Below, piece after piece: positions 10,338 to 61,095 of a stretch of DNA of 64,000 bases. A program made the translations under genes and the position numbers. Origin of the DNA: Blastomonas fulva (lineage in GTDB: Bacteria > Pseudomonadota > Alphaproteobacteria > Sphingomonadales > Sphingomonadaceae); assembly GCF_003431825.1 (NCBI RefSeq), contig NZ_CP020083.1, forward strand, positions 930,001-994,000, in the 5' to 3' direction. The notes under the pieces were generated by a model, which searched no databases, was not told the DNA's origin, and saw only the letters and a program-made list of their open reading frames with translations. Position 1 is the stretch's first letter; each line of letters opens with the position of its first letter.

Positions 10338-10364
10338 GGCGCTTACCTCTCTTCTTCAAAACCT

Positions 10365-36703: not shown

Positions 36704-36724
36704 GATTGTCGTCTCCCAAAAATT

Positions 36725-36814
36725 CCGGTTTCCCGCGACGGCGGGAGCCCATCTCCTAAGCTGTCACCCGGCACAACGGTCGGGAGATGGACCCCCGCCT
36801 GCGCGGGGGACCGG
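36725..36814. repeat. Inverted-repeat element, related to the one before crtD
   Basis: CCGGT ... ACCGG ends, inner arms GCCCATCTCC and GGAGATGGAC, and CCCGC/GCGGG palindromes. It lies between the acyl-CoA ligase and MDR genes and is non-coding. Confidence 0.55.
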
Positions 36815-36845
36815 CTGATCTACGGCATTGCCAAGGCTTCTCGCG

Positions 36846-38399: not shown

Positions 38400-38411
38400 G
38401 CTCACGGGCCC

Positions 38412-39872: not shown

Positions 39873-39917
39873 ATCTTGCGCGGTCGCGATCCCGTGTTGG
39901 TGTGGTCTAAGGACTGG

Positions 39918-39948
39918 GCCCGCCATCCCGTGCAATTGGATGGCGGGC
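39918..39948 (-). terminator. Stem-loop after the TonB receptor gene
   Basis: GCCCGCCATCC and GGATGGCGGGC form an 11-bp perfect stem with a 9-base loop, ten bases after the receptor stop. No T-run follows on the minus strand, so it may attenuate rather than terminate. Confidence 0.5.
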
Positions 39949-39957
39949 GACAGTATA

Positions 39958-42267
39958 TCAGAATTCGAGCATCACTTCAGCGCCCAGCTGACGGGGCGGA
40001 CGGACACCGGCAAAGGTGAACAGACCTGCCACCGGCAGCGTGCTGGACAGGCCGCGATTGTCGAGCAGGTTGCGACCGAACACGCTGAACGTCACGTTCG
40101 CACCGCCGAAGTCGTGCTTGTACGACAGGGTCGAATCGAGGATCTCGCGCTCAGAGGATTCGCAGCGGCGCTCGTTGGTGATGATGCCCTGCGCCTGCAG
40201 CGCCCCATCGGTGACGATGCAGGTCGAGTATTTGTCGACATAGCGGAAGATGGTGCTCCAGCGAAATTCGCCATCACCCACCGGGCGGGTGTAATCGAAA
40301 CCGGCGGACCAGGCATATTTCGGCGCACGGCGCAGGTCGAGATCGGACACGTCGATGCCGCCGCGCACGAAATTCTGGTAGTTGGCATCGAGATAGGTCG
40401 CCGAGAAGTTGAACGCGAGGTCATCGATCGGCAACGCGACAATTTCCAGCTCGATACCCTTGATCCGGGCCGAGGCGGCGTTCTCGACGATGGTTTCCTG
40501 CGCCTGGATGGCGTTGAACGGCGCCAGGGTGGGACGCACCAGCTCTTCCTGCTTGTCCGAATAATCGGTCTGGAAGATCGCGATGTTGGTGCGCAGGCGG
40601 CGGTCGAGCCAATCCGCCTTCAGGCCGATTTCATAGGCATCGACGATTTCCGGCTGATAGGGGCCGATCGCGGTCGGCGTCGCGGCGCGACCGTTGAAGC
40701 CGCCAGAGCGGAAGCCGCGCGAATAGGACGCATAGGCCAGCTGCCCGCCTTCGAACTGATAGTCCAGGCTGGCGCGATAGGTGAACTCGCCAAAATCCTC
40801 CGCCCCGACGCACGATGCTGCAGTGATCCCGGCAAAGCCGACCGGGCAGACGCCGGTGGGGCTCAGCGCAAAGTTGGTGACCAGCGCCTTCTCGTCACGG
40901 GTGTAGCGGCCACCGACGCCGAAGGTGAGCTTGTCGGACAGCTTGAAGCGCGCATCGGCAAAGCCGGCATAGGATTTGGAATCGCCGATCGAAAGCTGGA
41001 AGGCGCTGGCATTGGGGCCGAGAAATCCGAAGAACGAGGTCTGGCGCAGCGTGTACTGGCTGTCGAAATAATAGGCGCCCAGCACGATATCCATCCAGTC
41101 GGTGACGTCGCCGGCAAAGCGGATTTCCTGGCTAAACTGCTCGTACTTCTGGATGCGCAGCGTATCGAAGAAGTTGATCGAGGCGGAGTCGAAATCCTGC
41201 CGCACGCTCTCGTTGTTCTTGCGCCAGCCGGTGACCGAGGTCAGCGTGAAATCGCCCAGCTCGATATTGATCGTGCCGCTGATCGCGTCGGTCTTGTTGC
41301 GCACCGGGGTCTGGATATTGCCAAACACGGTGTAGAGCTGGCGGCTGTTGGTGGGCGTGCGGTTGCACTGGTTGCCCGGGATCTGGAAGGCGCGGACCAG
41401 CCCGACACCCGGCACCGGCACCTGCAGGCAGATCAGGTCGCGGTCGTTGGACACGCTGGCGGTGGCGACCTCGCCGTCTTCCTCCATGTGCTCATAGGTG
41501 ATCACCGCCTCGATATTGTCGCTCGGCGTGATCAGCGCGGTGACGCCCGCGGTCCACACTTCGTATTCGTTGGTGCGGCGGTTGTTCTGCGTCGCGTTGC
41601 GCAGATAGCCATCGGTGTTGTCGTAGAAGAAGAAGCCCTTGAGCGCGAGGAAATCGCCGATCATCGGGGTGTTGACGACAAGGCGTCCGCGGATGGTGTT
41701 GTACTCGGCATAGCCGATCGAGGCGCGCACGCCCCATTCGCCTGTGGGCTTGCTGCGGCGGACGTTGATCACGCCGCCGATGGTGTTGCGCCCGAACAGT
41801 GTGCCCTGCGGTCCGCGCAGGATCTCGATTGATTCCAGATCGAACGCATCGAGCAATTGCCCGGTATTGGTGCCGATGAAGACATCGTCGACCACGACTC
41901 CGACCGCGGGATCGAAGCTCTTTTCGATATCCTCGAAGCTGATGCCGCGGATGGCGATGGCGGCAGCCGAAGGCCCGGCATTGACCGGATCGACCACCAG
42001 CCCGGGGACGCGACCGGCAAAGTCGCGAAGGTCGTCCACCGCGCCGGTGGCAAGCGCCTGCGCATCGATCGCGGACACCGCGACGGGAACCGACTGCAGC
42101 GATTCCTCGCGGCGCTGCGCGGTGACAACGATGGTGCGAAGCCCGGTTTCCTGCGCGACCTCGGCGCCCTCTGGCGCCTGATCCTGCGCCAGCGCAGCCG
42201 AAGGTGCCGCCAGCGTTGCAAGGCCCAGCGCGAATGCCGAAACCGACAGATAGGTTGATACCTTCAT
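39958..42267 (-). CDS. TonB-dependent outer membrane receptor
   Basis: 769-residue TonB-dependent receptor with signal peptide (VSAFALGLATLAAPSAALAQ), a TonB-box-like TIVVTAQRR near residue 45, a plug domain (FAGRVPGLVVDPVN ... ILRGPQGTLFGRNTIGG) and a 22-strand barrel ending in the outer-membrane motif LGAEVMLEF. Shine-Dalgarno AAAAGGGGAGG precedes ATG 42267. The ligand is unknown; sphingomonads use many such receptors for aromatic and hydrophobic substrates. It heads the minus-strand catabolic unit. Confidence 0.95.
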   Translation of the reverse strand: MKVSTYLSVSAFALGLATLAAPSAALAQDQAPEGAEVAQETGLRTIVVTAQRREESLQSVPVAVSAIDAQALATGAVDDLRDFAGRVPGLVVDPVNAGPSAAAIAIRGISFEDIEKSFDPAVGVVVDDVFIGTNTGQLLDAFDLESIEILRGPQGTLFGRNTIGGVINVRRSKPTGEWGVRASIGYAEYNTIRGRLVVNTPMIGDFLALKGFFFYDNTDGYLRNATQNNRRTNEYEVWTAGVTALITPSDNIEAVITYEHMEEDGEVATASVSNDRDLICLQVPVPGVGLVRAFQIPGNQCNRTPTNSRQLYTVFGNIQTPVRNKTDAISGTINIELGDFTLTSVTGWRKNNESVRQDFDSASINFFDTLRIQKYEQFSQEIRFAGDVTDWMDIVLGAYYFDSQYTLRQTSFFGFLGPNASAFQLSIGDSKSYAGFADARFKLSDKLTFGVGGRYTRDEKALVTNFALSPTGVCPVGFAGITAASCVGAEDFGEFTYRASLDYQFEGGQLAYASYSRGFRSGGFNGRAATPTAIGPYQPEIVDAYEIGLKADWLDRRLRTNIAIFQTDYSDKQEELVRPTLAPFNAIQAQETIVENAASARIKGIELEIVALPIDDLAFNFSATYLDANYQNFVRGGIDVSDLDLRRAPKYAWSAGFDYTRPVGDGEFRWSTIFRYVDKYSTCIVTDGALQAQGIITNERRCESSEREILDSTLSYKHDFGGANVTFSVFGRNLLDNRGLSSTLPVAGLFTFAGVRPPRQLGAEVMLEF

Positions 42268-42480: not shown

Positions 42481-44601
42481 ATGCCGGTCCAGCGCAGCTT
42501 CTGCCGTTTCTGCCATGCCAATTGCGCGATCCTGGTCGAGACCGAGGGCGACACGGTCGTGCGCGTGTCGGGCGATCCGGAGGATCCGGTGTTCGGCGGC
42601 TATACCTGCATCAAGGGCCGCCAGCTGCCCGAGGCGCACCATCACCCCGAACGGCTGCTGGCTTCGCAGAAGAAGGGTGCGCAAGGGTTCGCCCCGATCG
42701 CAACGCAACAGGCGCTCGACGAGATCGCAGCGAAGCTCAAGCCGCTGATCGAGGAGCACGGACCCGACAGCGTCGCCATCTATGCGGGCACCTATTCGTT
42801 CCAGAACTCCGCAGGCGTCGCCTCTGCGATGGCGTTTGCGCAAGGATTGGGCACCCGGCATTTCTACACCAGCGTGACATTGGACCAGCCCGCCAAGGTC
42901 TACACCGCGTTCCAGTACGGCCAGTGGCAGGGCGGCGGGCATGTCTTTGGCGAGGCCGATGTCGCGTTCTTCATCGGCAACAATCCCATCGTCTCGCATT
43001 ACGGCCCGCCCGGCGGCCTGCCCCCGTTCTCGCCATCGCGCCGGTTGCGCGATGCGATCGAGGGGGGCCTCAAGCTGATCGTCGCCGACCCGCGCACCAG
43101 CGATGTCGCCGCACTGGCGCACATCCATTTGCCCGTAAAGCCCGGCGAGGACCCGGCGCTGCTCGCGGGGATGATCCACGTGATCCTGGAGGAGCGGTTG
43201 TATGACGAGGCGTTCGTGCAGGCCCATGTCGATGGCCTGGCCGAGCTCAAAGAGGCTGTGTCCGGCTTCCCGCCCGCGATCGCTGCCGCGCGCGCAGGCG
43301 TCAGCGAAGCGGACCTCGTCGCCGCCGCCCGGATGTTCGCAGGCGGCACCAGGGGCTCGGCCAGTACCGGGACGGGGCCGGAGATGGCGGGCAACGGCAC
43401 GCTGACGCAATATCTGGTGAGCAGCCTCAACATCCTGTGCGGCCGCTTCTGCCGCGAGGGCGAGAAGAGCTCGATCCCGCGTATCTTCACGCCCGTCACC
43501 CCGCGCCGCGCGCAGGTCGCGCCGCCGATGAAACTGTGGGGCGAGGGCTTTCCTGCCTCGCGCTTCCGCGGCCTCACCCATCTGATGAGCGAGATGCCGT
43601 GCAACGTGCTGGCCGACGAAATCCTCACCCCCGGCCAAGGCCAGATCAAGGCGCTGATCTCAATTGGCGGCAACCCGATGCTGGCCTTTCCCGACCAGGA
43701 CAAGATGGCGCGCGCGATTGATGCACTCGAGCTGTTCGTCAGCGTCGATATCCGCAGCGAAGGCGTCTCGGCGCGCCGCTCGGACTATATCCTCGCGCCG
43801 TTGATGTGCCTCGAGCGCGACGACATCTCGTCTTTGTCCGAATGGTGGTACGAGATCCCCTACGCGCGCTACACCGAGGCGCTGCTGCCGCGCCCGGGCG
43901 ATCTGCTCGACGAATACGAGATGCTCTGGGGGCTCGCCAAAAGGCTGGGCACCGGGCTGCCGCTGGCAGGCGGCCCCTGCCCGATGAACGTGTGTCCCGA
44001 CAAGCAGACCTTTCTCGACATGGCGGTTGCAGGCTGCGTGGTGCCGCCCAGCCAGGTCCGCGCCGACAGCCCCGATGGCAAGGCAGTGATCTATGACGAC
44101 AAGCACCCGATCGTCGAACCGGCAGAGCCAGGACACGAGGCGCGATTCGATCTGGCGGGCGGCGACATGCCCGCGCAGCTCGTCGCATATGGACGCGACG
44201 ATCCGGCGCGCCAGGGCTTTCCCTTCCGGCTGATCTCGCGCCGCAGCCGCCACCGCTTCAATTCGACCGGCGGGCATCTGTCCGCGCTCGCGGCCAAGCG
44301 CACCACCAACCCCGCGCACATCCACCCCGACGATCTGGCGGGACTTGGCGTCGCCGATGGCGAGATGATCCGCATCGCCTCTCCGCATGGCGAGGTGCAC
44401 GCGCTTGCCAAGGCATCCGATGGCCTGCGCCGCGGGGTGATCTCGATGGCGCACGGCTATGGCGACCCGGACTTCAGCCCGGACGCGGTCCCTATGCGCG
44501 GCGGATCGACCAACCGGCTGGTCAGCGAAACCAGCGGCTTCGATCCGATCACCGGCCAGGCGCTGCAGAGCGCGATTCCGGTCAAGGTGATGCGTGTTTG
44601 A
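42481..44601 (+). CDS. Molybdopterin-dependent oxidoreductase
   Basis: 706-residue bis-MGD enzyme of the DMSO reductase superfamily (formate dehydrogenase/nitrate reductase-like). An N-terminal [4Fe-4S] motif is visible as C-x2-C-x3-C plus a later Cys (FCRFCHANC ... GYTCIKGR). The C-terminal molybdopterin dinucleotide-binding domain (about residues 590-706) is present. ATG 42481 follows AGGGGAGA. No twin-arginine signal, so it is cytoplasmic. The following Rieske ferredoxin gene is probably its electron partner. Substrate unknown; similar enzymes in catabolic clusters hydroxylate or dehydrogenate. Confidence 0.9.
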   Translation: MPVQRSFCRFCHANCAILVETEGDTVVRVSGDPEDPVFGGYTCIKGRQLPEAHHHPERLLASQKKGAQGFAPIATQQALDEIAAKLKPLIEEHGPDSVAIYAGTYSFQNSAGVASAMAFAQGLGTRHFYTSVTLDQPAKVYTAFQYGQWQGGGHVFGEADVAFFIGNNPIVSHYGPPGGLPPFSPSRRLRDAIEGGLKLIVADPRTSDVAALAHIHLPVKPGEDPALLAGMIHVILEERLYDEAFVQAHVDGLAELKEAVSGFPPAIAAARAGVSEADLVAAARMFAGGTRGSASTGTGPEMAGNGTLTQYLVSSLNILCGRFCREGEKSSIPRIFTPVTPRRAQVAPPMKLWGEGFPASRFRGLTHLMSEMPCNVLADEILTPGQGQIKALISIGGNPMLAFPDQDKMARAIDALELFVSVDIRSEGVSARRSDYILAPLMCLERDDISSLSEWWYEIPYARYTEALLPRPGDLLDEYEMLWGLAKRLGTGLPLAGGPCPMNVCPDKQTFLDMAVAGCVVPPSQVRADSPDGKAVIYDDKHPIVEPAEPGHEARFDLAGGDMPAQLVAYGRDDPARQGFPFRLISRRSRHRFNSTGGHLSALAAKRTTNPAHIHPDDLAGLGVADGEMIRIASPHGEVHALAKASDGLRRGVISMAHGYGDPDFSPDAVPMRGGSTNRLVSETSGFDPITGQALQSAIPVKVMRV

Positions 44602-46533: not shown

Positions 46534-47547
46534 ATGACCAGCAACCGCCAGTTCATCCTCAAGCGCCGCCCCGATGGCGCGCCGGTCGCAGCCGATTTCG
46601 CGCTCGAGACCTCGGCGATCCCTGCGTTGGAGGACGGCCAGTTCCTGATCCGCAACCATTATGCCTCGCTCGATCCCGCGCAGCGCGGCTGGATGTCCGA
46701 TGCGGAAAGCTATATGCCGCCGATCCCGCTGGGCGCCCCGGTGCGCGCGACCACGATCGGCGTGGTCGAGGAAAGCCGCGCGGAGGGCTTCGCCAAGGGC
46801 CAATGGGTGCTGGGACTGAACGCCATCGAGGATTATTCGGTCGGCACGCTGGGCGGCTTCACCCAGCCGATCGACCCGCATGCGGTGCCATCGGTGACCA
46901 ACTATCTCTCGCTGTTCGGCGCGGTGGGCATGACCGCCTATTTCGGCTTCATCGATGTCTGCGAACCGATGGTCGGCGATGTCGTACTGATCAGCGGCGC
47001 AGCCGGCGCGGTGGGCTCGCTGGTCGGGCAGATCGCCAAGATCCTGGGCTGCACGACCATCGGCATCGCGGGCGGCGCGGAAAAATGCGCACGGCTCAAG
47101 GATCGCTATGGCTTCGATCACGCCATCGACTATCGCGGCAAGGACATGGCCGCGCTGGATGCCGCGATCAAGGCGGTGGCGCCCGATGGCGTCGATGTGA
47201 TCTTCGAAAATGTCGGCGGCGACATTCTGGACGCGGGGCTGATGAACCTGCGGCATGGCGCCCGCATCGGGCTGTGCGGGCTGATCAGCGAGTACAACGC
47301 GCCCAGCCCCGTGGGCGCGCGCAACATCTGGCAGCTGATCGTCCACCGCGCCTCGATCCGCGGGCTGCTGGTCGCGGACTATGTCGGGCGCTTTGCCGAG
47401 GGTGGCGCGAAGATGGGCGAATGGGCAGCATCGGGACGGCTGGTGGTCGACGAACATATCGACGAGGGGCTCGACAATGCGTTGCCTGCGTTCATGCGGC
47501 TGTTCGAGGGATCGAACCAGGGCAAGATGATCCTCAAGATCGCCTGA
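46534..47547 (+). CDS. MDR-family NADP-dependent oxidoreductase (paralogue 2)
   Basis: 337-residue enzyme of the CurA/prostaglandin reductase-like group, paralogue of the gene at 35705-36703. Shared blocks include DPAQRGWM, GAAGAVGSLVGQIA and GVDVIFENVGG. It likely reduces an alpha,beta-unsaturated ketone or acyl intermediate. Shine-Dalgarno ACCGGAGA is close to ATG 46534. Confidence 0.88.
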   Translation: MTSNRQFILKRRPDGAPVAADFALETSAIPALEDGQFLIRNHYASLDPAQRGWMSDAESYMPPIPLGAPVRATTIGVVEESRAEGFAKGQWVLGLNAIEDYSVGTLGGFTQPIDPHAVPSVTNYLSLFGAVGMTAYFGFIDVCEPMVGDVVLISGAAGAVGSLVGQIAKILGCTTIGIAGGAEKCARLKDRYGFDHAIDYRGKDMAALDAAIKAVAPDGVDVIFENVGGDILDAGLMNLRHGARIGLCGLISEYNAPSPVGARNIWQLIVHRASIRGLLVADYVGRFAEGGAKMGEWAASGRLVVDEHIDEGLDNALPAFMRLFEGSNQGKMILKIA

Positions 47548-49096: not shown

Positions 49097-50335
49097 GTGA
49101 CGGTGGCGGCAGAGCAGAAAAGCTTTTTCCATCCGGACGTGCTGTCCGACCCGTTCGCCTTCTATCAGGCGATGATTCCCAGCCAGCCGGTGTATCATGA
49201 CGCGGCCAGCGGGCTGTATCTGGTGCTCAGTCACAAGCTTGTCAGCGAGGCGACCGCGCGCACCGACGAGTTTTCGAACAACTTTCAGGCGGTGCTCTCG
49301 GGGGCGCGCTCGGAAGACCCGCAGGTCAAGGCGATCCTCGAGGATGGCTGGCCGCAGGTCGATACGCTGCTGACCGCCGATCCGCCGGTGCACACGCGCT
49401 TTCGCAAGCTGGTCAATCTCGCCTTCTCCGCGCCCAGGGTGAACAAGCTCGAAGCGCATATCCGCGAAATCGCGCGCGACCTGATCGACATTATGCTGGC
49501 CAGGGACGACATCGACTTCGTCCGCGATTTCGCGATTCCGCTGCCGATCCGGATGATCTCCGAGCAACTGGGGCTGACCCATGAGGATGCCGGCACGATC
49601 AAGCGCTGGACCGATGCGTTCGTCGACCGGCTGGGCGGCATGGTGCCGCTCGAGCGAGAGCTTCAATGCGCGCGCGAAGTGGTCGAGTTCCAGCACGCGA
49701 TCAAGGCGCAGATGGACCTGCGCCGCGCCAGCCCCACCGACGATCTGCTCTCCGATCTGGTCCACGCCCAGGTCGATGGCGAGCGGCCGCTGGACGATGG
49801 CGAACTGCTGTCGATCGTCCAGCAGCTGCTGGTCGCGGGCAACGAGACCACCACCGCGACGCTCGCCGAAGGGATCATCCTGCTGGCGCGAAATCCGGAC
49901 GAGCTCGCCAAGGCCAAGGCCGACCCGAAGATCATCCCCAACATGATCGAGGAAATGCTGCGGCTGGCAAGCGCGTCGTCGGGAATCTGGCGGGTGATGA
50001 AGCAGGACGCCGAGCTTGGCGGGGTGACGCTGCCCAGGGGCGCGATGGTGATGATGCGCTATGCCGCCGCCAACCGCGACCCGGAAAAATACGCAGACCC
50101 CGACGCCTTCATCGCCGATCGCGCCAATGCGCGCACGCATCTCGCCTTCGGGCGCGGCATTCATATGTGTGTGGGCAACATGCTCAGCCGCAAGGAAATG
50201 ACCGTGGCCTTCGAGGAACTGCTGCCGCGCATCAGCGCCATCACACTCACCGACGAGGCGGCAATCGCCTATCATCCCAACATGATGCTGCGCGGTCCCT
50301 CCTCGGTGCCGGTGCGCTTCGGGCTGGCCTCATGA
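49097..50335 (+). CDS. Cytochrome P450
   Basis: 412-residue soluble bacterial P450 monooxygenase. The heme-cysteine motif is FGRGIHMCVGN, the I-helix oxygen-activation motif LVAGNETTTA, and the K-helix ExxR follows in MIEEMLRLAS (EMLR). The start is a GTG at 49097 with GGGAGCAGG upstream. It leads an operon of acyl-CoA dehydrogenases, DUF35 and thiolase-like genes, fitting terminal or methyl hydroxylation of an aliphatic side chain. No ferredoxin or reductase gene adjoins it. Confidence 0.93.
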   Translation: MTVAAEQKSFFHPDVLSDPFAFYQAMIPSQPVYHDAASGLYLVLSHKLVSEATARTDEFSNNFQAVLSGARSEDPQVKAILEDGWPQVDTLLTADPPVHTRFRKLVNLAFSAPRVNKLEAHIREIARDLIDIMLARDDIDFVRDFAIPLPIRMISEQLGLTHEDAGTIKRWTDAFVDRLGGMVPLERELQCAREVVEFQHAIKAQMDLRRASPTDDLLSDLVHAQVDGERPLDDGELLSIVQQLLVAGNETTTATLAEGIILLARNPDELAKAKADPKIIPNMIEEMLRLASASSGIWRVMKQDAELGGVTLPRGAMVMMRYAAANRDPEKYADPDAFIADRANARTHLAFGRGIHMCVGNMLSRKEMTVAFEELLPRISAITLTDEAAIAYHPNMMLRGPSSVPVRFGLAS

Positions 50336-51423
50336 ATTTCGATTATGACGAAAGCCAGTTGCTGTTCCGCGCCTCTGTCGAGCGATTTCTGGACGGCAGC
50401 GACATTGCCACGCGCAAGGCGCAGCGGGCGAATCCCGGCGGCATCGATCGTGCACGCTGGCAGGCGATGGCAGCGCTGGGGCTGACTGCGATGGCGCTGG
50501 ACGAAGACAGAGGCGGGCTTGGCAGCAGCCTGATCGACCTCGTCGCCGTCGGCGAGAGCTTCGGCCAGCGCATATCCTCTGACAACTGGCTGGAGAACGC
50601 GGTGCTGCCGCTGGCGCTGGCGGGCAAGGCGTTGCGCGAAGGCGATCCCGTGATCGAGGCGCTGGCATCCGGCGAAGCGGTCGCAGCGCTCGCGGTGTTC
50701 GAGCCCGAGGGACGCCATGTCACCACACCGCGCAGCACCACCGCAAGGCAAAATGCGTCGGGCTATACGCTCAGCGGCGACAAGACCTTTGTGCTGGGCG
50801 GCATGGCGGCGGACTGGCTGCTGGTCAGCGCAGTGCTCGATGGCGAGCCCGCTCTGTTCGCGATCGCAACCGATGCGCCCGGCGTGTTTCGCCGGGGCTA
50901 TCAGGTCATCGACGGCAACATTGCCGCAGAAGTGCAGCTGCGCGGGTGCGAGGTGGTACGCGACGCCCGGCTCGATATCGCATGGGCTGCGGTCGAGCAG
51001 GTGCTGTCCACCGCGCGTCTGGTCGCCGCCGCCGAGATGACAGGCCTCGCCCAGCGGCTGTTCGACGACACGCTTGCCTATGTCCGCCAGCGCGAGCAGT
51101 TCGGCCAGCCGATCGGGCGCTTCCAGGCGATCCAGCACCGGATGGTCGATTGCTATGCGCTGGTCGACCAGGCGAAAAGCGCGCTGATCGCCGCGGTGAC
51201 ATCAGCCGACGCAGCGGCAATCGCGGGGATGAAGGCGATTGTTGCCGAGGCCGCGCTGCAGATCGGGCGCGAGGCGGTGCAGCTGCATGGCGGCATGGGC
51301 ACCACCGACGAGCTCGAGATCGGCCATGCGCACAAGCGCGTTCTGCTGTTGTCGCAATGGCTGGGGGACCCGGCAAGCGGGCTCGACAGCTATGCGCCCA
51401 AGGCCTTGAGGGTGGCGGCATGA
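50332..51423 (+). CDS. Acyl-CoA dehydrogenase (short form)
   Basis: 363-residue flavoprotein of the acyl-CoA dehydrogenase family, oxidising a CoA ester at the alpha-beta position. C-terminal blocks FGQPIGRFQAIQHRMVD and QLHGGMGTTDELEIGH are family-typical. Length and divergent N-terminal half match the smaller partner of heteromeric ACADs used for steroid or cyclic side chains; the gene at 54506 could be the other half. ATGA overlap with the P450. Confidence 0.88.
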   Translation: MNFDYDESQLLFRASVERFLDGSDIATRKAQRANPGGIDRARWQAMAALGLTAMALDEDRGGLGSSLIDLVAVGESFGQRISSDNWLENAVLPLALAGKALREGDPVIEALASGEAVAALAVFEPEGRHVTTPRSTTARQNASGYTLSGDKTFVLGGMAADWLLVSAVLDGEPALFAIATDAPGVFRRGYQVIDGNIAAEVQLRGCEVVRDARLDIAWAAVEQVLSTARLVAAAEMTGLAQRLFDDTLAYVRQREQFGQPIGRFQAIQHRMVDCYALVDQAKSALIAAVTSADAAAIAGMKAIVAEAALQIGREAVQLHGGMGTTDELEIGHAHKRVLLLSQWLGDPASGLDSYAPKALRVAA

Positions 51424-51821
51424 GCGCGCCCGCACCGGTGGCAGTGGGGCTGTGGACCGACGGAGCCGAACCGCAGCTGATCGGCGGGCGACACCGCGTC
51501 AGCGGCGAGATCGTCTTCCCGATGCCGCAGGGCGATGCCGCGCAGCATTTCGATGCGGTTGCGCTTTCGCGTACCGGTACCCTGTGGTCGTGGACCAGCC
51601 AGGATTTCCGCCCGAAATCACCGCCTTATGCCGGGCCCGAAGCGTTCAAGCCGTTCCTGATCGGCTATGTCGAGCTGCCGGGGCAGGTGATCGTCGAGAC
51701 CCGGATAGAGGGAGCCGCACTCGCTGACTTGAAAATCGGGATGGCGATGGAAATGGTTCTGACCGAGTTCGCACCGGGACGGTCGACCTTTGCGTTCAAA
51801 CCCGCAGGAGCAGGCGCATGA
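51420..51821 (+). CDS. DUF35 OB-fold protein lacking zinc-ribbon cysteines
   Basis: 133-residue protein of the DUF35 type, in which a rubredoxin-like zinc ribbon precedes an OB-fold. The fold pattern (GRHRVSGEIVFPMPQ, then LIGYVELPGQVIVETRI and GMAMEMVLTEF) is visible, but there is no cysteine anywhere in the protein, so the usual zinc site is lost. DUF35 proteins bind the thiolase-like/Ltp2 aldolase encoded next to them. It overlaps both neighbours by four bases. Confidence 0.82.
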   Translation: MSAPAPVAVGLWTDGAEPQLIGGRHRVSGEIVFPMPQGDAAQHFDAVALSRTGTLWSWTSQDFRPKSPPYAGPEAFKPFLIGYVELPGQVIVETRIEGAALADLKIGMAMEMVLTEFAPGRSTFAFKPAGAGA

Positions 51822-52963
51822 CCAACGTCCAGATCATCGGCGCAGGGATCCACCCGTTCGGGCGTACCGACGGCAGGTCCGGGCGCGATCAGGGCGTGTT
51901 CGCGGTGCGCCAGGCGCTGGCGGACGCAGGGCTGGACTGGACCGATATCGAATGCGCCTATGGCGGCTCCGAAGGCGCGGGCAATGCCGACATCATGGTC
52001 AATGAGCTTGGCCTTACGGGACTTCCCTTCATCAACGTTTCCAACGGTTGCGCCACGGGCGGCAGCGCATTGTCGTCCGCGCGCAATGCGGTCGCTTCAG
52101 GCCAATGCGATGTCGCGCTGGCGGTGGGGTTCGACAAGCACCCGCGCGGCGCGTTCAACGCCAAGCCCGGCGACTGGGGCCTGCCCGAATGGTATGGCGA
52201 AACCGGCTTGATGCTGACCACGCAGTTCTTCGCGATGAAGATCCAGCGGTACATGCAGTTGCACGGCATCAGCCGCCGGACATTGGGCATGGTCGCGGAA
52301 AAGGCCTTCCGCAACGGTGCCTTGTGCGAGCACGCCTGGCGGCGCTCGCCGGTCGATCTCGACACGATCCTCAATGCGCCGATGGTCAACGATCCGCTGA
52401 CCAAATACATGTTCTGCTCTCCGGCAGAGGGCGCGGTGGCGCTGATCATCGCGTCGGAGAAGAGGGCGCGCGAGCTTGGCGCGGACGGGGTGAAGATCGC
52501 CAGCATCGCGGTGCGCACCCGGCCGCCCGGATCGTTTGAGGTGTTTGCCCCCGCGATCAGCGTCGAGCGCGGCGGCAAACCCACCGAGCTTGCCAGCAAG
52601 GCCGCGTACGAGGCGGCAGGGATCGGCCCCGAGGATATCGATGTCGCACAGTTGCAGGACACCGAATCGGGCGCCGAGATCATGCACATGGCCGAGAACG
52701 GCTTCTGCAAGGATGGCGAGCAGGAGCAGTGGCTGGCGCAAGGGCGTACCGAACTGAATGGGCCGCTTCCGGTCAACACCGATGGCGGATGCCTGGCCTG
52801 CGGCGAGCCGATCGGCGCGTCGGGGCTGCGGCAGGTCTATGAAAACACCGTGCAACTGCGCGGACGCGGCGGCGCGCGGCAGGTTCCGGGCAGCCCCAAG
52901 ACCGCCTACAGCCATGTCTATGGCGCGCCCGGCCTTTCCGCCGTCGCGATACTGGAGCGCTAG
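51818..52963 (+). CDS. Thiolase-like protein (SCP-x/Ltp2 type)
   Basis: 381-residue thiolase-fold protein of the lipid-transfer/SCP-x group. A Cys at the nucleophile position is seen in NGCATGGSAL, but the second Cys motif (CxGGG) is replaced by SHVYGAPG and the usual GHPxGASG His motif reads GEPIGASG. It therefore lacks standard thiolase chemistry, as in Ltp2-type retro-aldolases that work with DUF35 partners. A DUF35 gene is directly upstream. Aldolase function is inference. Confidence 0.85.
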   Translation: MTNVQIIGAGIHPFGRTDGRSGRDQGVFAVRQALADAGLDWTDIECAYGGSEGAGNADIMVNELGLTGLPFINVSNGCATGGSALSSARNAVASGQCDVALAVGFDKHPRGAFNAKPGDWGLPEWYGETGLMLTTQFFAMKIQRYMQLHGISRRTLGMVAEKAFRNGALCEHAWRRSPVDLDTILNAPMVNDPLTKYMFCSPAEGAVALIIASEKRARELGADGVKIASIAVRTRPPGSFEVFAPAISVERGGKPTELASKAAYEAAGIGPEDIDVAQLQDTESGAEIMHMAENGFCKDGEQEQWLAQGRTELNGPLPVNTDGGCLACGEPIGASGLRQVYENTVQLRGRGGARQVPGSPKTAYSHVYGAPGLSAVAILER

Positions 52964-52966
52964 AAT

Positions 52967-53737
52967 ATGGGGATGATGCAGGGCAAGGTCGCATTGATCT
53001 CGGGCGGCGCGGAAGGCATTGGCGGGGCGACCGGGCGGCGGATCGTCGCCGAGGGCGGCAGCGTGGTGCTGGGCGATATCCAGTTCGACAAGGCCAAGGC
53101 GCTGGCATCCGAGCTCGGCGAGCGCGCGATGGCGGTGTCGCTCGACGTGCGCGATCTGGCGCAATGGGAGGCGGCGGTGCAGGCGGCGGTCGCCACCTTC
53201 GGCAAGCTGACCCATCTGGTCAATGTCGCTGGAATTTCGGAGCCCGGAGCCGTGACCGATGTCGATCTCGATAGCTGGGCGCGCACCATCGACATCAACC
53301 TCAATGGCACCTTCAACGGCTGCCGCGCGGCGATCCCCGCGATCGCGGACTCGGGCGAACCCGGCGCGATCGTCAACATCGGCTCGATGCTCGCGCTGCG
53401 GGTCGGTTCGGGCTTTGCCGCCTATTGCGCGTCCAAGGCGGCGGTCACTGCGCTCACCAAGACGATCGCTCTCGATTGCGCCGAAAAGGGGCTGCCGATC
53501 CGCGCCAATACCGTCCACCCCGGCGCAATCCGCACGCCGATGTTCGAACGCTATCTCGAAGCGCTCCCCGGCACCGTGGAAGAGGTCGAGGCGATGTTCG
53601 CCGCCAACCACCCGATGGGCCGCGTCGGTGAAGCGGCCGAGGTGGTTAACGCCATCGTCTTTTTGCTGTCCGATCAGGCCAGCTTCACCACCGGTGTCGA
53701 TTTCACCGTCGATGGCGGTGGCAATTTCCGCAGCTAA
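52967..53737 (+). CDS. SDR-family oxidoreductase
   Basis: 256-residue classical SDR; cofactor motif SGGAEGIGGATG near residue 11, Asp in LGDIQFD, and active-site AAYCASKAA. It sits three bases after the thiolase-like gene. Possible role: hydroxyacyl-CoA or hydroxysteroid-type dehydrogenase in the same pathway. Confidence 0.9.
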   Translation: MGMMQGKVALISGGAEGIGGATGRRIVAEGGSVVLGDIQFDKAKALASELGERAMAVSLDVRDLAQWEAAVQAAVATFGKLTHLVNVAGISEPGAVTDVDLDSWARTIDINLNGTFNGCRAAIPAIADSGEPGAIVNIGSMLALRVGSGFAAYCASKAAVTALTKTIALDCAEKGLPIRANTVHPGAIRTPMFERYLEALPGTVEEVEAMFAANHPMGRVGEAAEVVNAIVFLLSDQASFTTGVDFTVDGGGNFRS

Positions 53738-53752
53738 GGGGCAGATTGAGGC

Positions 53753-54502
53753 ATGGCTGAACGGATCGATGCGCATTTCGTCGCGGCGGGAAAATACCAC
53801 GATATCGACTTTGCCCGGCTCGAGCTGCTCAAACTGCTCGCCGAGCACGACAACATCCGCACCACCGTTGCGCATGACTACAACGGCGTTGCCGATCGCC
53901 TGCCCGCGTGCCGGTTCCTGGTAACCTATACCTGCGACCTGATGCCGTCCGAGGGGGAGGCGCAGGCGATCGCCGCGTTCCTCGAAAAAGGTGGCCGCTG
54001 GCTGGCGCTGCACGGCACCAACTCGATCCTGCGCTTTACCGATGCCGGTGTCGACAGCCCCGAAGAACGCCCCGACGTGATGCAGATGCTGGGCACCCAG
54101 TTCAAGGCGCACCCGCCGATCGGCGCACCGTTCGCGGTTCAGATCGTCGACGGCGACCACGACGTGACGCGCGGGATCGCCGATTTCGATGTGGTCGACG
54201 AACTGTATCTGATGAAACAGGTCAGCGACATCCGCACGCTGGCGCAGACGCGCTTTGCGGGCGAGGCGACCGGCTTTGTCGATGCGAACTGGCCCGAAAC
54301 GGTCGTCCCGGTGATCTACACCCGCGCGATCGGTGCGGGCGGCATCCTCTACAACACGCTTGGCCATTGCCGCGGGCATTACGACCTGCCGGGCATGCAG
54401 GATTTCTACCCGCATCCCGAGAAATGCGCGTGGAACTACCCCATCTATTACGAACTCTTGCGCCGCAGCATCCTCTGGGCGACCGGAACTGGCGGGATTT
54501 GA
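53753..54502 (+). CDS. ThuA-domain protein
   Basis: 249-residue protein with the ThuA-like (trehalose utilisation) class I glutamine amidotransferase-like fold: LVTYTCDLMPSEGEAQAI, GGRWLALHGTNS and YNTLGHCRGHYD blocks. Members occur in sugar and lipid catabolism but the activity is not well defined. It lies between an SDR and an acyl-CoA dehydrogenase in the operon. Confidence 0.8.
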   Translation: MAERIDAHFVAAGKYHDIDFARLELLKLLAEHDNIRTTVAHDYNGVADRLPACRFLVTYTCDLMPSEGEAQAIAAFLEKGGRWLALHGTNSILRFTDAGVDSPEERPDVMQMLGTQFKAHPPIGAPFAVQIVDGDHDVTRGIADFDVVDELYLMKQVSDIRTLAQTRFAGEATGFVDANWPETVVPVIYTRAIGAGGILYNTLGHCRGHYDLPGMQDFYPHPEKCAWNYPIYYELLRRSILWATGTGGI

Positions 54503-54505
54503 CGC

Positions 54506-55714
54506 ATGGACATGGATTTCACCCCCGATGAGCTCGCCTTCCAGACCGAGGTGCGCGCCTTCCTCAAGACGCATCTCACCGACCGGCTGATCGATGGCGC
54601 GCGGCGCACGCCGGGCGTGTTCGTCGAGCCCGACATCGGCCTCGAATGGCAGCGAATCCTGCATACGAAGGGCTGGTTGGCGACGCATTGGCCGGTCGAG
54701 GATGGCGGCACCGGCTGGACCCCGGTGCAGCGCTACATCTTCGAGAAGGAATGCGCTTATGCCGGCGCGCCCGCATTGCCGGTCCTCGGGCTCAAGCTGG
54801 TCGGCCCGGTGATCTGCCGCTTCGGCACGCCGGAACAGAAGGCGCGCTTCCTGCCGCGCATCCTTTCGGCCGAGGATTACTGGTGCCAGGGCTATTCCGA
54901 GCCGGGATCGGGATCGGACCTTGCCAGCCTCAAGACGCGCGCGGTGCGCGAGGGTGACCACTACCGCATCAACGGCTCCAAGATCTGGACCACGCACGCG
55001 CATTACGCCAACTGGATCTTCTGCCTGGTCCGCACCGATCCGGACGTGTCGGCGCAGCGCGGCATCACCTTTCTGCTCGTTCCGATGGACCAGCCCGGCA
55101 TCACCGTCACCCCGATCATCACCATGGCGGGCGACCATGAGGTCAACCAGGTGTTTTTCGACGATGCCGCAAGCAGCATCGACAACCGCATCGGCGACGA
55201 AGGCCAGGGCTGGACCATCGCCAAGTTCCTGCTCGAAAACGAGCGCGGCGGATCGTGCTTCGCGCCCAAATTGCTGGTCGATATCGACCGGCTGATGGTG
55301 GCTGCGGGCGGCGTGCCCAGCGGCACCAACGGCGCGGTCGCGCACGATCCAGTGATCGCGCGCAAGCTTGCCTCGCTGCGGCTGCGCGCGCAGGCGTTCG
55401 AGATCAGCGAGCTGCGCATCCTCGCCGAGATCGCCAAGGGCCGCCCGCCCGGGCCGCAGACATCGCTGGTCAAATTGTTCTCAGCGAACCTCAGGCAGGA
55501 GCTCGACACGCTGGCGATGGAGATCCACGGCCTCAATGGCCTGCAGCTCCCCGCCGAACGCCCGCTCTACGGCAACGAGGCACCCGAGCCGGTGGCATCG
55601 GTCGATGCGCAGATGGCCGCGGGCCGCTACCTCAACTCGCGCGCGTGGACGATCTTCGGTGGATCGGACGAGGTGCAGAAGAACATCATCGCCAAGACCG
55701 TGCTGGGGTTGTGA
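54506..55714 (+). CDS. Acyl-CoA dehydrogenase (long form)
   Basis: 402-residue acyl-CoA dehydrogenase with the FAD/substrate block QGYSEPGSGSDLASL, IWTTHAHYANW and the C-terminal TIFGGSDEVQKNIIAK. Length is typical for the FadE group used for steroid/terpenoid side chains. It may form a hetero-oligomer with the product of 50332-51423. Last gene of the P450 unit; a palindromic repeat block follows. Confidence 0.9.
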   Translation: MDMDFTPDELAFQTEVRAFLKTHLTDRLIDGARRTPGVFVEPDIGLEWQRILHTKGWLATHWPVEDGGTGWTPVQRYIFEKECAYAGAPALPVLGLKLVGPVICRFGTPEQKARFLPRILSAEDYWCQGYSEPGSGSDLASLKTRAVREGDHYRINGSKIWTTHAHYANWIFCLVRTDPDVSAQRGITFLLVPMDQPGITVTPIITMAGDHEVNQVFFDDAASSIDNRIGDEGQGWTIAKFLLENERGGSCFAPKLLVDIDRLMVAAGGVPSGTNGAVAHDPVIARKLASLRLRAQAFEISELRILAEIAKGRPPGPQTSLVKLFSANLRQELDTLAMEIHGLNGLQLPAERPLYGNEAPEPVASVDAQMAAGRYLNSRAWTIFGGSDEVQKNIIAKTVLGL

Positions 55715-55897: not shown

Positions 55898-56809
55898 ATG
55901 GACATCACCCAGATCATGTACCGCCGAGGCCTGATGGCAGGAGAGCGCATCCTGGTGACCGGCGGAGGCACCGGGCTTGGCAAGGTGATGGCCGAGGCGT
56001 TCGCATATCTCGGTGCCGAGGTGCACATCTGCGGGCGGCGCGGCGCGGTGCTCGAAGCCACCGCCGACGAACTGATGACCCGGCACGGCGGCACAATCGG
56101 AGCGCATGCCTGCGACATCCGCAAGCCCGATGCAATCGATGCGATGGTCGAACAGATCTGGACGCAGCACGGGCCGCTCACCGGTCTGGTCAACAACGCG
56201 GCGGGCAACTTCATCAGCCGCACCGAAGACCTCAGCGTCAACGGCTTCAATGCGATCTCGGACATCGTGTTTCGCGGCACTTTCTACATGACGCACAACA
56301 TCGGCAAGCGGATGATCGCCGAGCAGATTCATGGCAATTTCCTCGCAATCCTCACCACCTGGGTATGGAACGGCGGGCCGTTCACCGTGCCCTCGGCGAT
56401 GTCCAAGGCCGGGATCAACGTGATGACGCAAAGCCTGGCCACCGAATGGGGCCGCTATGGCCTCAGGTTCAATGCGATTGCGCCGGGCACCTTCCCCACC
56501 AAGGGCATGACCGAGCGGCTGTCGCCTGGCAATGCGCAAGGGATGCAGGGCCGCAACGCCGACCGGTCCAACCCGATGGGCCGGGTCGGCGCAATGCACG
56601 AACTGGCCAATCTGGCCGTGCTGCTGATGGCGCGCGGCGCGGACTATATCAACGGCCAGACCATCGCCATCGACGGCGCGGGCTATCAGGCCAATTCAGG
56701 CAATTTCTACCAGAGCCTGTCGCGGATGGACGATGCGCAATGGGCCGACATGGCGTCGCAGATTCGCGGCGCGAACGACAAGGACAAGGCCGCGCGGACC
56801 ACCGATTGA
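55898..56809 (+). CDS. SDR of the 2,4-dienoyl-CoA reductase type
   Basis: 303-residue SDR with TGGGTGLGKVMAEA near residue 21. The usual catalytic Tyr is absent: the motif reads SAMSKAG in place of YxxxK, which is the pattern of 2,4-dienoyl-CoA reductases. A beta-oxidation role for unsaturated acyl-CoA is likely from the family and neighbours. A Shine-Dalgarno AAGGAGAG precedes ATG 55898. Confidence 0.85.
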   Translation: MDITQIMYRRGLMAGERILVTGGGTGLGKVMAEAFAYLGAEVHICGRRGAVLEATADELMTRHGGTIGAHACDIRKPDAIDAMVEQIWTQHGPLTGLVNNAAGNFISRTEDLSVNGFNAISDIVFRGTFYMTHNIGKRMIAEQIHGNFLAILTTWVWNGGPFTVPSAMSKAGINVMTQSLATEWGRYGLRFNAIAPGTFPTKGMTERLSPGNAQGMQGRNADRSNPMGRVGAMHELANLAVLLMARGADYINGQTIAIDGAGYQANSGNFYQSLSRMDDAQWADMASQIRGANDKDKAARTTD

Positions 56810-56936: not shown

Positions 56937-57752
56937 ATGATCGAGACACCACGTCATTTCACCGAGAAAGCAGAGGGCCGCAACAACCCGGTCAACACGC
57001 TGGCGCAGCGGGTGACCATCCGCCGGGTCGAAGATATTCACGATGCCGCGGTCGCGCTGCACGAGATGTCGCAGACGCGTGGGTTCAGGGTCGCCGCCTG
57101 CGACGACATCTCGTCCAAGGAACCGATGATCGATGCCGACGGCGCGATCATAAACGGCGAAATCTTCGGCTGGATGGCCGATGGCGAACGCTGGTGGGAG
57201 GATACAAGGCTGGCGCTCAACTCGCCGCTGCCGCGCGCCTGCCGCTACGAGAGCGAGCCGTTCTGGTGCAACGAGCACGGCATGTTCGGGCGCTGGCGCA
57301 ACGAATATCTCGAAGAGATGGACCTTACTGATTTCCGCAAGCGATCGTTGTGCCATGCCGCGATCATGGTGCCGATCCACCTGCCCTTCGGCCAGATCGG
57401 ATCGGTCAGCTTCACCCCGCTCGACAAGGACCTCACCGACCTTTCCGAGCCGTTCGAGAAGCACGCCGACCTGATGGCGGCAATGACGCGGCGGTTCATC
57501 GCGGGCTATGTCATGGTCATGCGCACCAAGCGGCGGATCCCTGCGGACTGCATGCTCTCCAAGCGCGAGGTCGAATGCCTGCGCTGGGCAGCGATCGGCA
57601 AGACCGACAAGGAGATCAGCATGATCCTCGACCGCAGCCACGCCACCATCCGCTACCACATCCACCGCGCGGGCGAAAAACTCGACGCGGTCAACCGCAG
57701 CCAGACGATCTTCAAGGCCGGGCAACTGGGGTATCTGGGCGCGAGCGATTGA
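56937..57752 (+). CDS. LuxR-type regulator with autoinducer-binding-like domain
   Basis: 271-residue regulator: N-terminal domain resembling LuxR ligand-binding domains (RACRYESEPFWCNEHG and later PIHLPFGQIGSVSF) and a C-terminal GerE HTH (LSKREVECLRWAAIGKTDKEI ... TIRYHIHRAGEKL). No luxI-type gene is seen nearby, so it is a solo. Such solos in sphingomonad catabolic regions may sense a substrate or exogenous signal; this is inference. It ends before a perfect bidirectional terminator. Confidence 0.88.
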   Translation: MIETPRHFTEKAEGRNNPVNTLAQRVTIRRVEDIHDAAVALHEMSQTRGFRVAACDDISSKEPMIDADGAIINGEIFGWMADGERWWEDTRLALNSPLPRACRYESEPFWCNEHGMFGRWRNEYLEEMDLTDFRKRSLCHAAIMVPIHLPFGQIGSVSFTPLDKDLTDLSEPFEKHADLMAAMTRRFIAGYVMVMRTKRRIPADCMLSKREVECLRWAAIGKTDKEISMILDRSHATIRYHIHRAGEKLDAVNRSQTIFKAGQLGYLGASD

Positions 57753-59709: not shown

Positions 59710-61095
59710 ATGGAAGATGCGAGCCGGACCTATCCTGCCGACCGCTGCCCGGCGATCACCGTCGACGAGATCCTCGACCTCGACAGCCGCACGGTTCCGC
59801 AAGAGGTCCGCGGCGACAGCTGGCGGGATCTCGGCACCGAGCCGGTCACCGCCGAGCGCTATACCAGCGCCGCGTTCTTCGAGGCCGAAAAGAAGCACAT
59901 GTGGCCCAATGTCTGGCAGATGGCGGCGCGCGAAGACGAGCTGCTGCAGCCGGGCGACTATGTCGTCTACAACAATGTCGGCCGGTCCTATCTGATCATG
60001 CGGCAGGACGACGGGTCGGTGAAGGCCTTCCACAATGTCTGCCTGCACCGGGGCCGCAAATTGCGCACCGAGAGCGGCTCGGCCGACGACCTCACCTGCC
60101 CGTTCCACGGTTTTGCCTGGAAGACCGACGGCGCGATCAAGCACATCCCGTGCGAATGGGATTTCCAGCACCTGAAAGAACGCGACATGAGCCTGCCCGA
60201 GCTGCGGGTCGAGCGCTGGCAGGGCTTTATCTACGTCACCGAAAGCACCACGCAGGTGAGCCTTCGCGACTATATGGGCGCAGAAGTCTACGACCGGTTC
60301 GGCCGCTGGCGGCTCGATGAATGCTATACCGCTTTGTGGATCGGCAAGGTGATCAACGCCAACTGGAAGGCGGTGTCCGAGGCGTTCATGGAGGCCTGGC
60401 ACTCGATCGTCACCCACCCGCAGATCCTGCCCTATACCGGCGATGCCAACACCCGCTATTCGATGTGGGGCGATCATGCGAACCTTGCGCTGACCCCGTT
60501 CGGCCTGCCCAGCCCGCATCTGGCAGCCGACAATCTCAGCGAAGACGACATCATCGCCGCGTTCAGCCGCACATCGGGCCGATCGGCCTCGCTCGAAGGC
60601 CGCAAGCTCGCCGAGGGCGAGACCGCGCGCACCGCAATGGCCGAGACCAACCGCGCCAACTATCTCGACGCCCTGGGCTATGACAGCTCGGACATTTCGG
60701 ACAGCGAGATGCTCGATGCGTTCACCTACAACATCTTCCCCAACCTCTCGCCCTGGGGCGGGTTCGTGCCCAATATCGTCTATCGCTGGCGCCCCTGGCC
60801 CGACCAGAACGCAACGCTGATGGAGGTGCGTCTGCTCGCGCGCAAACCCAAGGACGGGGACATGCCCGAAGCCGCCGAGATGCGCTTTCTTGGACCGGAT
60901 CAGCCCTGGGCGACGGTCACCGAATGGGGCGCATTGGGCGAGGTGTTCGATCAGGACATGGAGAACCTGCCTTATGTGCAGGAGGGCCTGATCGCCTCGG
61001 CGAACAACCGCGTCGAACTCGGCCGCTACCAGGAAGGCCGCATCCGCCAGTTCCACCAGACGATGGACAAGTATCTGGCGGGGCAGCTGCCGTGA
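59710..61095 (+). CDS. Rieske non-heme iron oxygenase alpha subunit 2
   Basis: 461-residue ring-hydroxylating oxygenase alpha subunit. Rieske motif CLHRGRKL ... CPFHGFAW and iron motif EAFMEAWHSIVTH. It is larger than and distinct from the gene before it, so the two act on different substrates or steps. The stop GTGA overlaps the next gene's GTG start. Shine-Dalgarno GGAGAG lies seven bases before ATG. Confidence 0.92.
   Translation: MEDASRTYPADRCPAITVDEILDLDSRTVPQEVRGDSWRDLGTEPVTAERYTSAAFFEAEKKHMWPNVWQMAAREDELLQPGDYVVYNNVGRSYLIMRQDDGSVKAFHNVCLHRGRKLRTESGSADDLTCPFHGFAWKTDGAIKHIPCEWDFQHLKERDMSLPELRVERWQGFIYVTESTTQVSLRDYMGAEVYDRFGRWRLDECYTALWIGKVINANWKAVSEAFMEAWHSIVTHPQILPYTGDANTRYSMWGDHANLALTPFGLPSPHLAADNLSEDDIIAAFSRTSGRSASLEGRKLAEGETARTAMAETNRANYLDALGYDSSDISDSEMLDAFTYNIFPNLSPWGGFVPNIVYRWRPWPDQNATLMEVRLLARKPKDGDMPEAAEMRFLGPDQPWATVTEWGALGEVFDQDMENLPYVQEGLIASANNRVELGRYQEGRIRQFHQTMDKYLAGQLP

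Follow-up and report, generated by a model that had tools for sequence, protein, structure and literature searches.

Within 64,000 nucleotides of the Blastomonas fulva genome (the window; positions 930001-994000 on a 3.98-Mb contig of a 4.12-Mb genome), seven intact genes on the plus strand (49097-55714) encode, in this order, a cytochrome P450, an acyl-coenzyme A (CoA) dehydrogenase (ACAD), a DUF35 protein, a thiolase-like protein, a short-chain dehydrogenase/reductase (SDR), a ThuA-domain protein and a second ACAD. An earlier sequence-only reading had likened this cluster to the mycobacterial igr operon and taken the thiolase-like protein for an Ltp2-like aldolase. Judged from the sequence comparisons described below, the module is real, conserved and partly igr-like, but it is not an Ltp2 aldolase module; rather, it constitutes a variant of the DUF35-thiolase theme. 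As far as its residues tell, an aldolase reading is left without its hallmark tyrosine and a thiolase reading without its histidines.

The thiolase-like protein, its DUF35 partner and the dehydrogenase pair

Order, position, strand and intactness of the seven genes as well as their Pfam families (Table 1) agree with what the sequence-only reading had given. The P450, ACAD-beta, DUF35 and thiolase-like genes overlap by 4 nt at all three of their junctions and the remaining gaps measure 3, 15 and 3 nt, for which reason the seven genes look like one transcription unit. The start codons of the ACAD-beta and DUF35 genes were chosen by separate gene calling. Scans for promoters (one site versus 1.3 expected) and for terminators (eight sites versus 4.5 expected, standard deviation 2.1) were not used.

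Among the chains of the PDB, the thiolase-like protein matches BbsB with an E value of 1e-44, SCP2-thiolase with 2e-43 and TcLtp2 with 1e-23. In a tree of 35 rows chosen by hand, 14 of which belong to the family of the window protein, this family forms a clade (support 100/100) which is separate from a likewise fully supported clade (100/100) holding the two characterised aldolases. The latter comprises seven rows, namely TcLtp2, CtSal, IpfD, 4u4e, two plasmid-borne sequences and a paralogue from the B. fulva genome itself. A placement of the thiolase-like protein in the Ltp2 lineage was rejected by the approximately unbiased (AU) test (p = 8.25e-5), as was its grouping with CtSal (p = 1.4e-4) and with IpfD (p = 8.9e-9), the groups for these constraints having been named after the tree was seen. 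With a fully supported clade of its own and all three groupings rejected, the proposed Ltp2-like aldolase identity is not supported. In the best tree the family lies, weakly supported, on the side of the SCP2-thiolases and BbsB. An exclusive grouping with the SCP2-thiolases (p = 0.101) or with BbsB and one relative thereof (p = 0.108) is not rejected, nor is a sister position to the aldolase clade in its entirety (p = 0.163). The protein is thus not of the Ltp2 lineage, while its placement with true thiolases is neither shown nor rejected.

The paralogue just mentioned is part of a second DUF35-thiolase-like pair (L192:10491-12058; C1:2770490-2772057), which carries a YDGF motif and has kept its zinc ribbon. 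A 3-ketosteroid-dehydrogenase-like gene is located about 24 kb from this pair. Searched with one 3-ketosteroid dehydrogenase profile, the B. fulva genome yields a single near-full-length relative (371 bits, the cut-off being 837) besides six weak matches of short length. Since the same profile finds matches, all of them under the cut-off, in each of 14 control genomes as well, this search decides nothing.

In the active-site columns the thiolase-like protein has Cys78, Gln280-Asp281-Thr282 at the place of the thiolase motif HDCF, Gly329-Glu330-Pro331 at the place of GHP, and a last loop reading Tyr368-Gly-Ala-Pro-Gly. Throughout 129 distinct sequences, picked at a minimum identity of 48%, Cys78, Tyr126, Cys200, Glu204, Gln280, Asp281, Thr282, Glu330 and Pro331 are invariant, and position 368 is occupied by Tyr in 128 of them. 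The corresponding columns read Cys, H-D-C or H-D-A and G-H-P in SCP2-thiolase and BbsB, Gly, Y-D-H and Tyr in TcLtp2, Gly, Y-D-C and Gln in CtSal, and Gly, Y-D-A and Tyr in IpfD; position 330 of the family aligns with Tyr344 of TcLtp2. Accordingly, of the thiolase hallmarks the nucleophilic cysteine is present (Cys78) while both the histidine of the HDCF/NEAF-type motif and that of GHP are absent (Gln280, Glu330). The aldolase hallmarks, i.e. the tyrosine of YDHF or YDCY and the lack of a nucleophilic cysteine, are absent as well, with Gln280 and Cys78 found in 129 of 129 sequences. That the normal catalytic His and second Cys motifs are missing had been correctly recognised from the sequence alone; the retention of Cys78 went unmentioned there. 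The excerpted text of PMC12329534 describes the YDHF motif of TcLtp2 and the replacement of the CtSal nucleophile by Gly, reports on the basis of mutations that Tyr302 and Cys304 of the YDCY motif are needed in CtSal, and proposes a Gln in the oxyanion hole of that enzyme.

The DUF35 protein of the window does not contain a single cysteine and can therefore not form a zinc ribbon, which needs four of them. Its only match in NCBIfam at E 0.001 is BbsA (1e-6, below cut-off). Among 90 clustered members including that of the window, the called DUF35 proteins, some of whose starts were called late, contain no cysteine in 32 cases, one in 49, two in eight and three in one. When the ribbon region of the 128 DUF35 proteins adjoining a thiolase-like protein (see below) was read from stop to stop, with one row (L094) cut short, no cysteine was found in 96, one in 26, two in three and four to five in another three. 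These last three all originate from Rhodococcus, and a search for the four-cysteine motif returned the same three, suggesting that the zinc ribbon has probably been lost on the proteobacterial branch. As the zinc finger of the CtSal partner shapes the substrate cleft, according to the excerpt of PMC12329534, losing the ribbon is expected to bear on the substrate.

The larger ACAD has its nearest chains of known structure in ChsE4/FadE26 (4x28_A, 2e-53) and also in Tcur3483, the smaller one in Tcur3481 (6wy8_A, 2.5e-29), with ordinary ACADs following at 2e-23. In a 22-row tree ACAD-alpha groups with ChsE4/FadE26 and Tcur3483 (100/100) and ACAD-beta with Tcur3481 (100/99), both halves being set apart from the medium-chain acyl-CoA dehydrogenase row. 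Glu246 of the large ACAD aligns with Glu247 of ChsE4, which we take to be the catalytic base. ACADs of the alpha and the beta half, at least one of each, on branches supported by at least 100/99, are found for the window, Novosphingobium aromaticivorans, two Rhodococcus loci (L073, L074) and the Mycobacterium branderi locus. The proposed ACAD heteromer is therewith supported insofar as the two proteins appear as the halves of a steroid-type heteromeric ACAD group and not as generic enzymes; orthology to FadE28/FadE29 is not implied. A specific CYP125 identity of the P450 is not shown. Its nearest solved chains are mixed: 6gmf (6e-62) comes first, CYP142/steroid C26-monooxygenase (7e-59) scores about as EryF (8e-59), and the first CYP125 row, a construct, follows at 5e-55.

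Distribution and gene neighbourhood of the family

The closest named relatives of the thiolase-like protein (93-96% identity) are from Blastomonas, Sphingomonas ursincola and one Sphingomonas sp. Among 249 genomes from the same family, its own included, the query finds a match at E <=1e-60 in 53, which split into 50 at >=66% identity and three at 35-39%, with none in between; here as below, the genome counts are lower bounds, few first-look candidates having been scored per genome. An alignment-based search at E 1e-100 found the protein in 11 of 337 genomes of a class sample (own genome included), and in a sample of the phylum two of 398 genomes pass this threshold, B. fulva and one congeneric. 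The family is therefore sharply bounded and patchily distributed in the Sphingomonadaceae (50/249 genomes). Relatives with 50-72% identity are encoded on plasmids of Novosphingobium, Croceicoccus, Sphingobium, Rhodococcus, Streptomyces and Mycobacterium branderi. A 77% identical relative is present in a genome of the gammaproteobacterial SAR92 clade (L124), and its nesting among sphingomonad sequences suggests a recent transfer or contamination. A relative of 37-38% identity (L070:9192-10602), next to which a DUF35-like protein is encoded, has the Cys, QDT and GEP in common with the family but lacks YGAPG, which may point to a broader group of greater age that carries this residue combination. 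At yet another locus (L183, ~8910-11300) two family members stand in tandem with no adjoining DUF35 gene, one of them with His at position 368; the genome in question and two relatives hold three family copies each.

To describe the neighbourhood we gathered 132 loci with a family member of >=48% identity, excluding the window; the set is partly redundant, some genomes having been taken twice. The DUF35 gene adjoins the thiolase-like gene on the same strand in 128 of these loci, hence the pairing of this core is not due to chance. Two of the four remaining loci are contig ends, the others being the tandem-copy locus L183 and the M. branderi locus L075. Co-occurrence was counted, with thresholds set by ourselves, in the 106 loci that span more than 8.5 kb on both sides ("full-span loci"). 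Profile matches were obtained for ACAD-alpha in 94 and for ACAD-beta in 92 of them (in 92 and 88, respectively, within 4 kb of the thiolase-like gene), for SDR in 85, medium-chain dehydrogenase/reductase (MDR) in 78, LuxR in 73, ThuA in 59, Rieske oxygenase in 55, P450 in 53, E1beta in 50 (27 within 4 kb), molybdopterin oxidoreductase in 49, VOC in 47, E1alpha in 39 and E2 in 22. Four 20-kb stretches of the same genome served as control at the same thresholds for all neighbour profiles except VOC, E1alpha and E2: ACAD-beta, SDR, E1beta and MDR (here the second MDR of the window itself) each match in one stretch, while ACAD-alpha, ThuA, LuxR, P450, Rieske oxygenase and molybdopterin oxidoreductase match in none. 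The full seven-gene order is narrower, being present in 16 of 38 family loci (L032-L069, tblastn matches); elsewhere the DUF35-thiolase-like pair is kept, while order and strand of the other genes vary. In L072, L065, L067, L069, L185, L187 and L190, genes for E1alpha/E1beta, often also E2, of a thiamine-diphosphate-dependent dehydrogenase adjoin the pair or are one to two genes away. Hydratases were sought by pairwise comparison, using three MaoC-type queries plus one OB-fold protein as well as two enoyl-CoA hydratase queries. As already noticed from the sequence alone, no MaoC gene is present in the operon, and among the full-span loci just one, the source of two of the queries (L075), was matched.

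Table 1. Genes of the operon and of its surroundings in the window
Feature	Position	Strand	Assignment and occurrence
Cytochrome P450, 412 aa	49097..50335	+	Pfam PF00067, 4e-29; alternative start 49103
Acyl-CoA dehydrogenase, beta/small type, PimD-like	50332..51423	+	Pfam; NCBIfam TIGR03203, 174 bits, below cut-off (652.7)
DUF35/OB-fold partner, 133 aa	51420..51821	+	PF01796 (OB_ChsH2_C), 8e-16
Thiolase-like protein	51818..52963	+	PF22691, 1e-30
SDR oxidoreductase, candidate 3-hydroxyacyl-CoA dehydrogenase	52967..53737	+	PF13561, 1.5e-59
ThuA-domain protein	53753..54502	+	PF06283, 1e-16
Acyl-CoA dehydrogenase, alpha/large type, PimC/ChsE4-like	54506..55714	+	TIGR03204, 359 bits, below cut-off (623.85)
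SDR, possibly linked	55898..56809	+	starts 183 nt past the last operon gene; cluster in 41/116 loci
LuxR-family protein, candidate regulator of the module	56937..57752	+	PF00196, 9e-14; 73/106 full-span loci
Molybdopterin oxidoreductase, upstream neighbour	42481..44601	+	PF00384; 49/106 full-span loci
NADPH-dependent enone reductase, curcumin-reductase-like (MDR)	46534..47547	+	NF058644, 311 bits, below cut-off (440); 78/106 loci
Rieske ring-hydroxylating oxygenase, alpha subunit	59710..61095	+	NCBIfam matches all below cut-off; 55/106 loci

Beside the module, a block on the minus strand (35705-42267) contains a lignostilbene/apocarotenoid dioxygenase-like gene (NF053778, 392 bits, below cut-off), a CoA ligase gene, a curcumin-reductase-like gene and a TonB-receptor-like gene (39958-42267). 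SnoaL-like and ABM-like proteins are encoded near the operon. Between the upstream SDR and the P450 (48368-48924), two small open reading frames on the minus strand resemble, by eye, a ParE/RelE-ParD toxin-antitoxin pair; a cluster of similar ParD-like proteins is represented in 10 of 116 loci. The ThuA protein of the operon has no PDB match at E 0.1, and two different kinds of ThuA-domain protein recur in these clusters, one typified by L032:4457-5245 (38/116 loci), the other by the window protein (63/116). More remote from the operon, genes for 5-aminolevulinate synthase, AcsF, BchL, BchH, BchB, BchP and CrtD were found at 4972-30988; because of these bacteriochlorophyll and carotenoid genes the host is probably an aerobic anoxygenic phototroph.

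Proposed reaction and its alternatives

Tentatively, we consider the seven genes a catabolic operon whose DUF35 and thiolase-like proteins most likely perform a Cys78-dependent retro-Claisen cleavage of a bulky 3-oxoacyl-CoA, whereby we infer the complex as well as reaction, direction and substrate class. Overall, such an operon would shorten, in the manner of beta-oxidation, a bulky acyl-CoA of probably alicyclic or isoprenoid nature. Oxidation of the compound would fall to the P450 together with oxygenases encoded nearby, genes outside the operon would provide CoA activation and the hydratase, the two ACADs would assemble to an alpha2beta2 dehydrogenase of the ChsE/PimCD kind, and the SDR would oxidise the 3-hydroxyacyl-CoA. 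The DUF35 and thiolase-like proteins would then, as a complex, cleave the C-C bond. In the course of this reaction Cys78 would become acylated, with Glu330 acting as base in place of a thiolase histidine, Gln280 substituting for the oxyanion histidine and Tyr368 or Thr282 giving the proton. The retro-Claisen reading is supported by BbsB and SCP2-thiolase being the nearest solved structures, with TcLtp2 farther away, and by BbsA as the one NCBIfam match of the DUF35 protein. In addition, the position of the SDR gene directly after the thiolase-like gene counts in its favour since thiolysis, unlike retro-aldol cleavage, needs prior oxidation of the 3-hydroxy group. The 4-nt overlaps, the adjoining DUF35 gene in 128 of 132 loci, the presence of both ACAD halves, the invariant Cys78, Gln280, Thr282 and Glu330, and the Gln proposed for the oxyanion hole of CtSal likewise speak for the overall proposal.

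Several observations weigh against this proposal. The thiolase histidines and the second catalytic cysteine are gone, so that ordinary thiolysis cannot simply be assumed. The family is not located inside the true thiolases, the supports in that region being weak (88/45, 87/84, 86/51), and none of the sister placements, be it to aldolases, SCP2-thiolases or BbsB, is rejected. SDRs are common, and the link of this one to the cleavage step is one that we infer. A match for ACAD-alpha is missing in 12 and for ACAD-beta in 14 of the 106 full-span loci, the ACAD-beta and SDR profiles are those which also match one of the four control stretches each, and the single ACAD sampled from another Rhodococcus locus, the third (L162), groups with neither of the halves. 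Finally, an enoyl-CoA hydratase is matched in only 13 and MaoC in one of the 106 loci.

A third type of catalysis, in which the acyl group on Cys78 is passed to a non-CoA acceptor or hydrolysed, or in which a beta-diketone is cleaved or a decarboxylation takes place, appears rather unlikely to us. In its favour, the constant set of Cys78, Gln280, Thr282 and Glu330 is identical with none of the thiolase or aldolase rows in the comparison, and an E1beta gene within 4 kb in 27 of 106 loci is atypical of plain beta-oxidation. Indeed, the E1beta genes, the enone reductase and the two kinds of ThuA protein do not fit plain side-chain beta-oxidation, and other chemistry may be involved. Around the operon of the window, however, no gene for E1 or E2 was recognised, and an E1beta match is absent from 56 of the 106 loci.

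We regard as improbable that the operon is an igr-like module in which the thiolase-like protein acts as a retro-aldolase on a 3-hydroxyacyl-CoA and sets free propionyl-CoA (or acetyl-CoA), Glu330 assuming an acid/base role that in Ltp2 is exercised by Tyr residues. The steroid-type ACAD pair, the DUF35 partner and the loss of the thiolase histidines would suit it, the correspondence of position 330 to Tyr344 of TcLtp2 identifies a site known to vary between the classes, and the placement as sister to the aldolase clade is among those not rejected. Against this stand the rejected groupings with Ltp2, Sal and IpfD, the invariable replacement of the YDxx tyrosine by Gln, and the equally invariable retention of the nucleophilic cysteine, which is Gly in TcLtp2 and CtSal (129/129 each); moreover, MaoC was matched in just the one full-span locus. 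Since both the zinc ribbon and several catalytic residues are missing, the DUF35-thiolase-like pair might be viewed as catalytically degenerate, acting as a scaffold for the ACADs and the SDR or as their substrate carrier; this is very doubtful, as the strict conservation of Cys78, Glu330, Gln280, Tyr126 and Cys200 argues for chemistry at that site. A biosynthetic cluster that tailors a secondary metabolite, conceivable in view of the P450, the Rieske oxygenases, the SnoaL-like and ABM-like proteins and the LuxR regulator nearby, is the least credible option, since the TonB-receptor-like gene and the resemblance of the ACAD pair to degradative enzymes speak against it and no polyketide synthase, non-ribosomal peptide synthetase or terpene synthase was recognised nearby, although no dedicated search was made and not every gene was scanned.

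Relation to known systems and significance

Pairs of DUF35 and thiolase-superfamily proteins are known to catalyse thiolysis (BbsAB), retro-aldol cleavage (Ltp2, Sal) and acyl transfer (PhlABC). By sequence, the closest pair of solved structure is the benzoylsuccinyl-CoA thiolase BbsAB (PDB 7pxp), likewise a heteromer of a DUF35 and a thiolase-superfamily protein, with which the window pair has the nucleophilic cysteine in common. Yet BbsB possesses the histidines of HDAF and GHP where the window protein has QDT and GEP, and the alignment shows in BbsA the ribbon cysteines, presumably a zinc site, that are lacking in the window DUF35 protein. The bbs operon, too, includes SDR and ACAD genes. 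As regards the ACADs, those of the window match both heteromer halves of PimC/PimD, below the NCBIfam cut-offs, as well as those of ChsE4/Tcur3481-Tcur3483.

With the igr module (ChsE1E2-ChsH1H2-Ltp2 in actinobacteria, ORF40-44 in Comamonas) the window operon shares the alpha/beta ACAD pair and the pairing of DUF35 with a thiolase-superfamily protein, and to this extent the parallel drawn in the sequence-only reading stands. It does not extend to the cleaving enzyme, which falls outside the Ltp2 lineage and is devoid of the catalytic tyrosine, nor to the fusion of DUF35 with MaoC or the zinc ribbon, since the window operon is without MaoC and its DUF35 protein is unfused and ribbon-less. A proteobacterial igr equivalent is already known from Comamonas testosteroni TA441; the excerpt of PMC12502768 shows by gene disruption that it comprises ChsE1E2 and Ltp2 along with two hydratase subunits, one of them a MaoC-DUF35 protein. 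The bile-acid aldolase Sal-Shy (PDB 9myr) resembles the window pair in the DUF35 partner and in the superfamily; CtSal, however, combines YDCY with Gly at the nucleophile position (PMC12329534, excerpt), as opposed to Cys78 and QDT in the window protein, and their grouping is rejected as stated above. IpfDE from ibuprofen degradation (pIBU218) is, like the pair studied here, a sphingomonad DUF35-thiolase-like pair in a degradation cluster. IpfD, called a thiolase in the excerpted text of PMC9195938, has YDAF and no nucleophilic cysteine and resides in the clade of characterised aldolases, and its grouping with the window protein is rejected as well. The edc cluster for oestradiol contains, according to the excerpt of PMC7793797, a P450, a ChsH2-like protein and a lipid-transfer protein. 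Among the matches listed for the open-access literature, with subscription papers mostly outside this scope, steroid, toluene, ibuprofen and unrelated topics prevail, and this module is described in no title and no opening of an abstract.

Taken further, and put forward with reserve, the family might represent a third catalytic class of DUF35-partnered thiolase-superfamily enzymes, neither thiolase nor retro-aldolase, which would be marked by Cys78, Gln280, Thr282 and Glu330 and, in Proteobacteria, by a ribbon-less DUF35 protein. It would be central to a degradation module that possesses its own alpha/beta ACAD and is exchanged widely, occurring in Sphingomonadaceae, other Alphaproteobacteria and Actinobacteria. 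The residue set invariant over 129 sequences marks a type of enzyme for which the relatives do not reveal the reaction, and it cautions against naming every cluster of P450, ACAD, DUF35 and thiolase genes a sterol side-chain module. The identity of the substrate would explain the presence of the module in about one fifth of the sampled genomes of the family Sphingomonadaceae.

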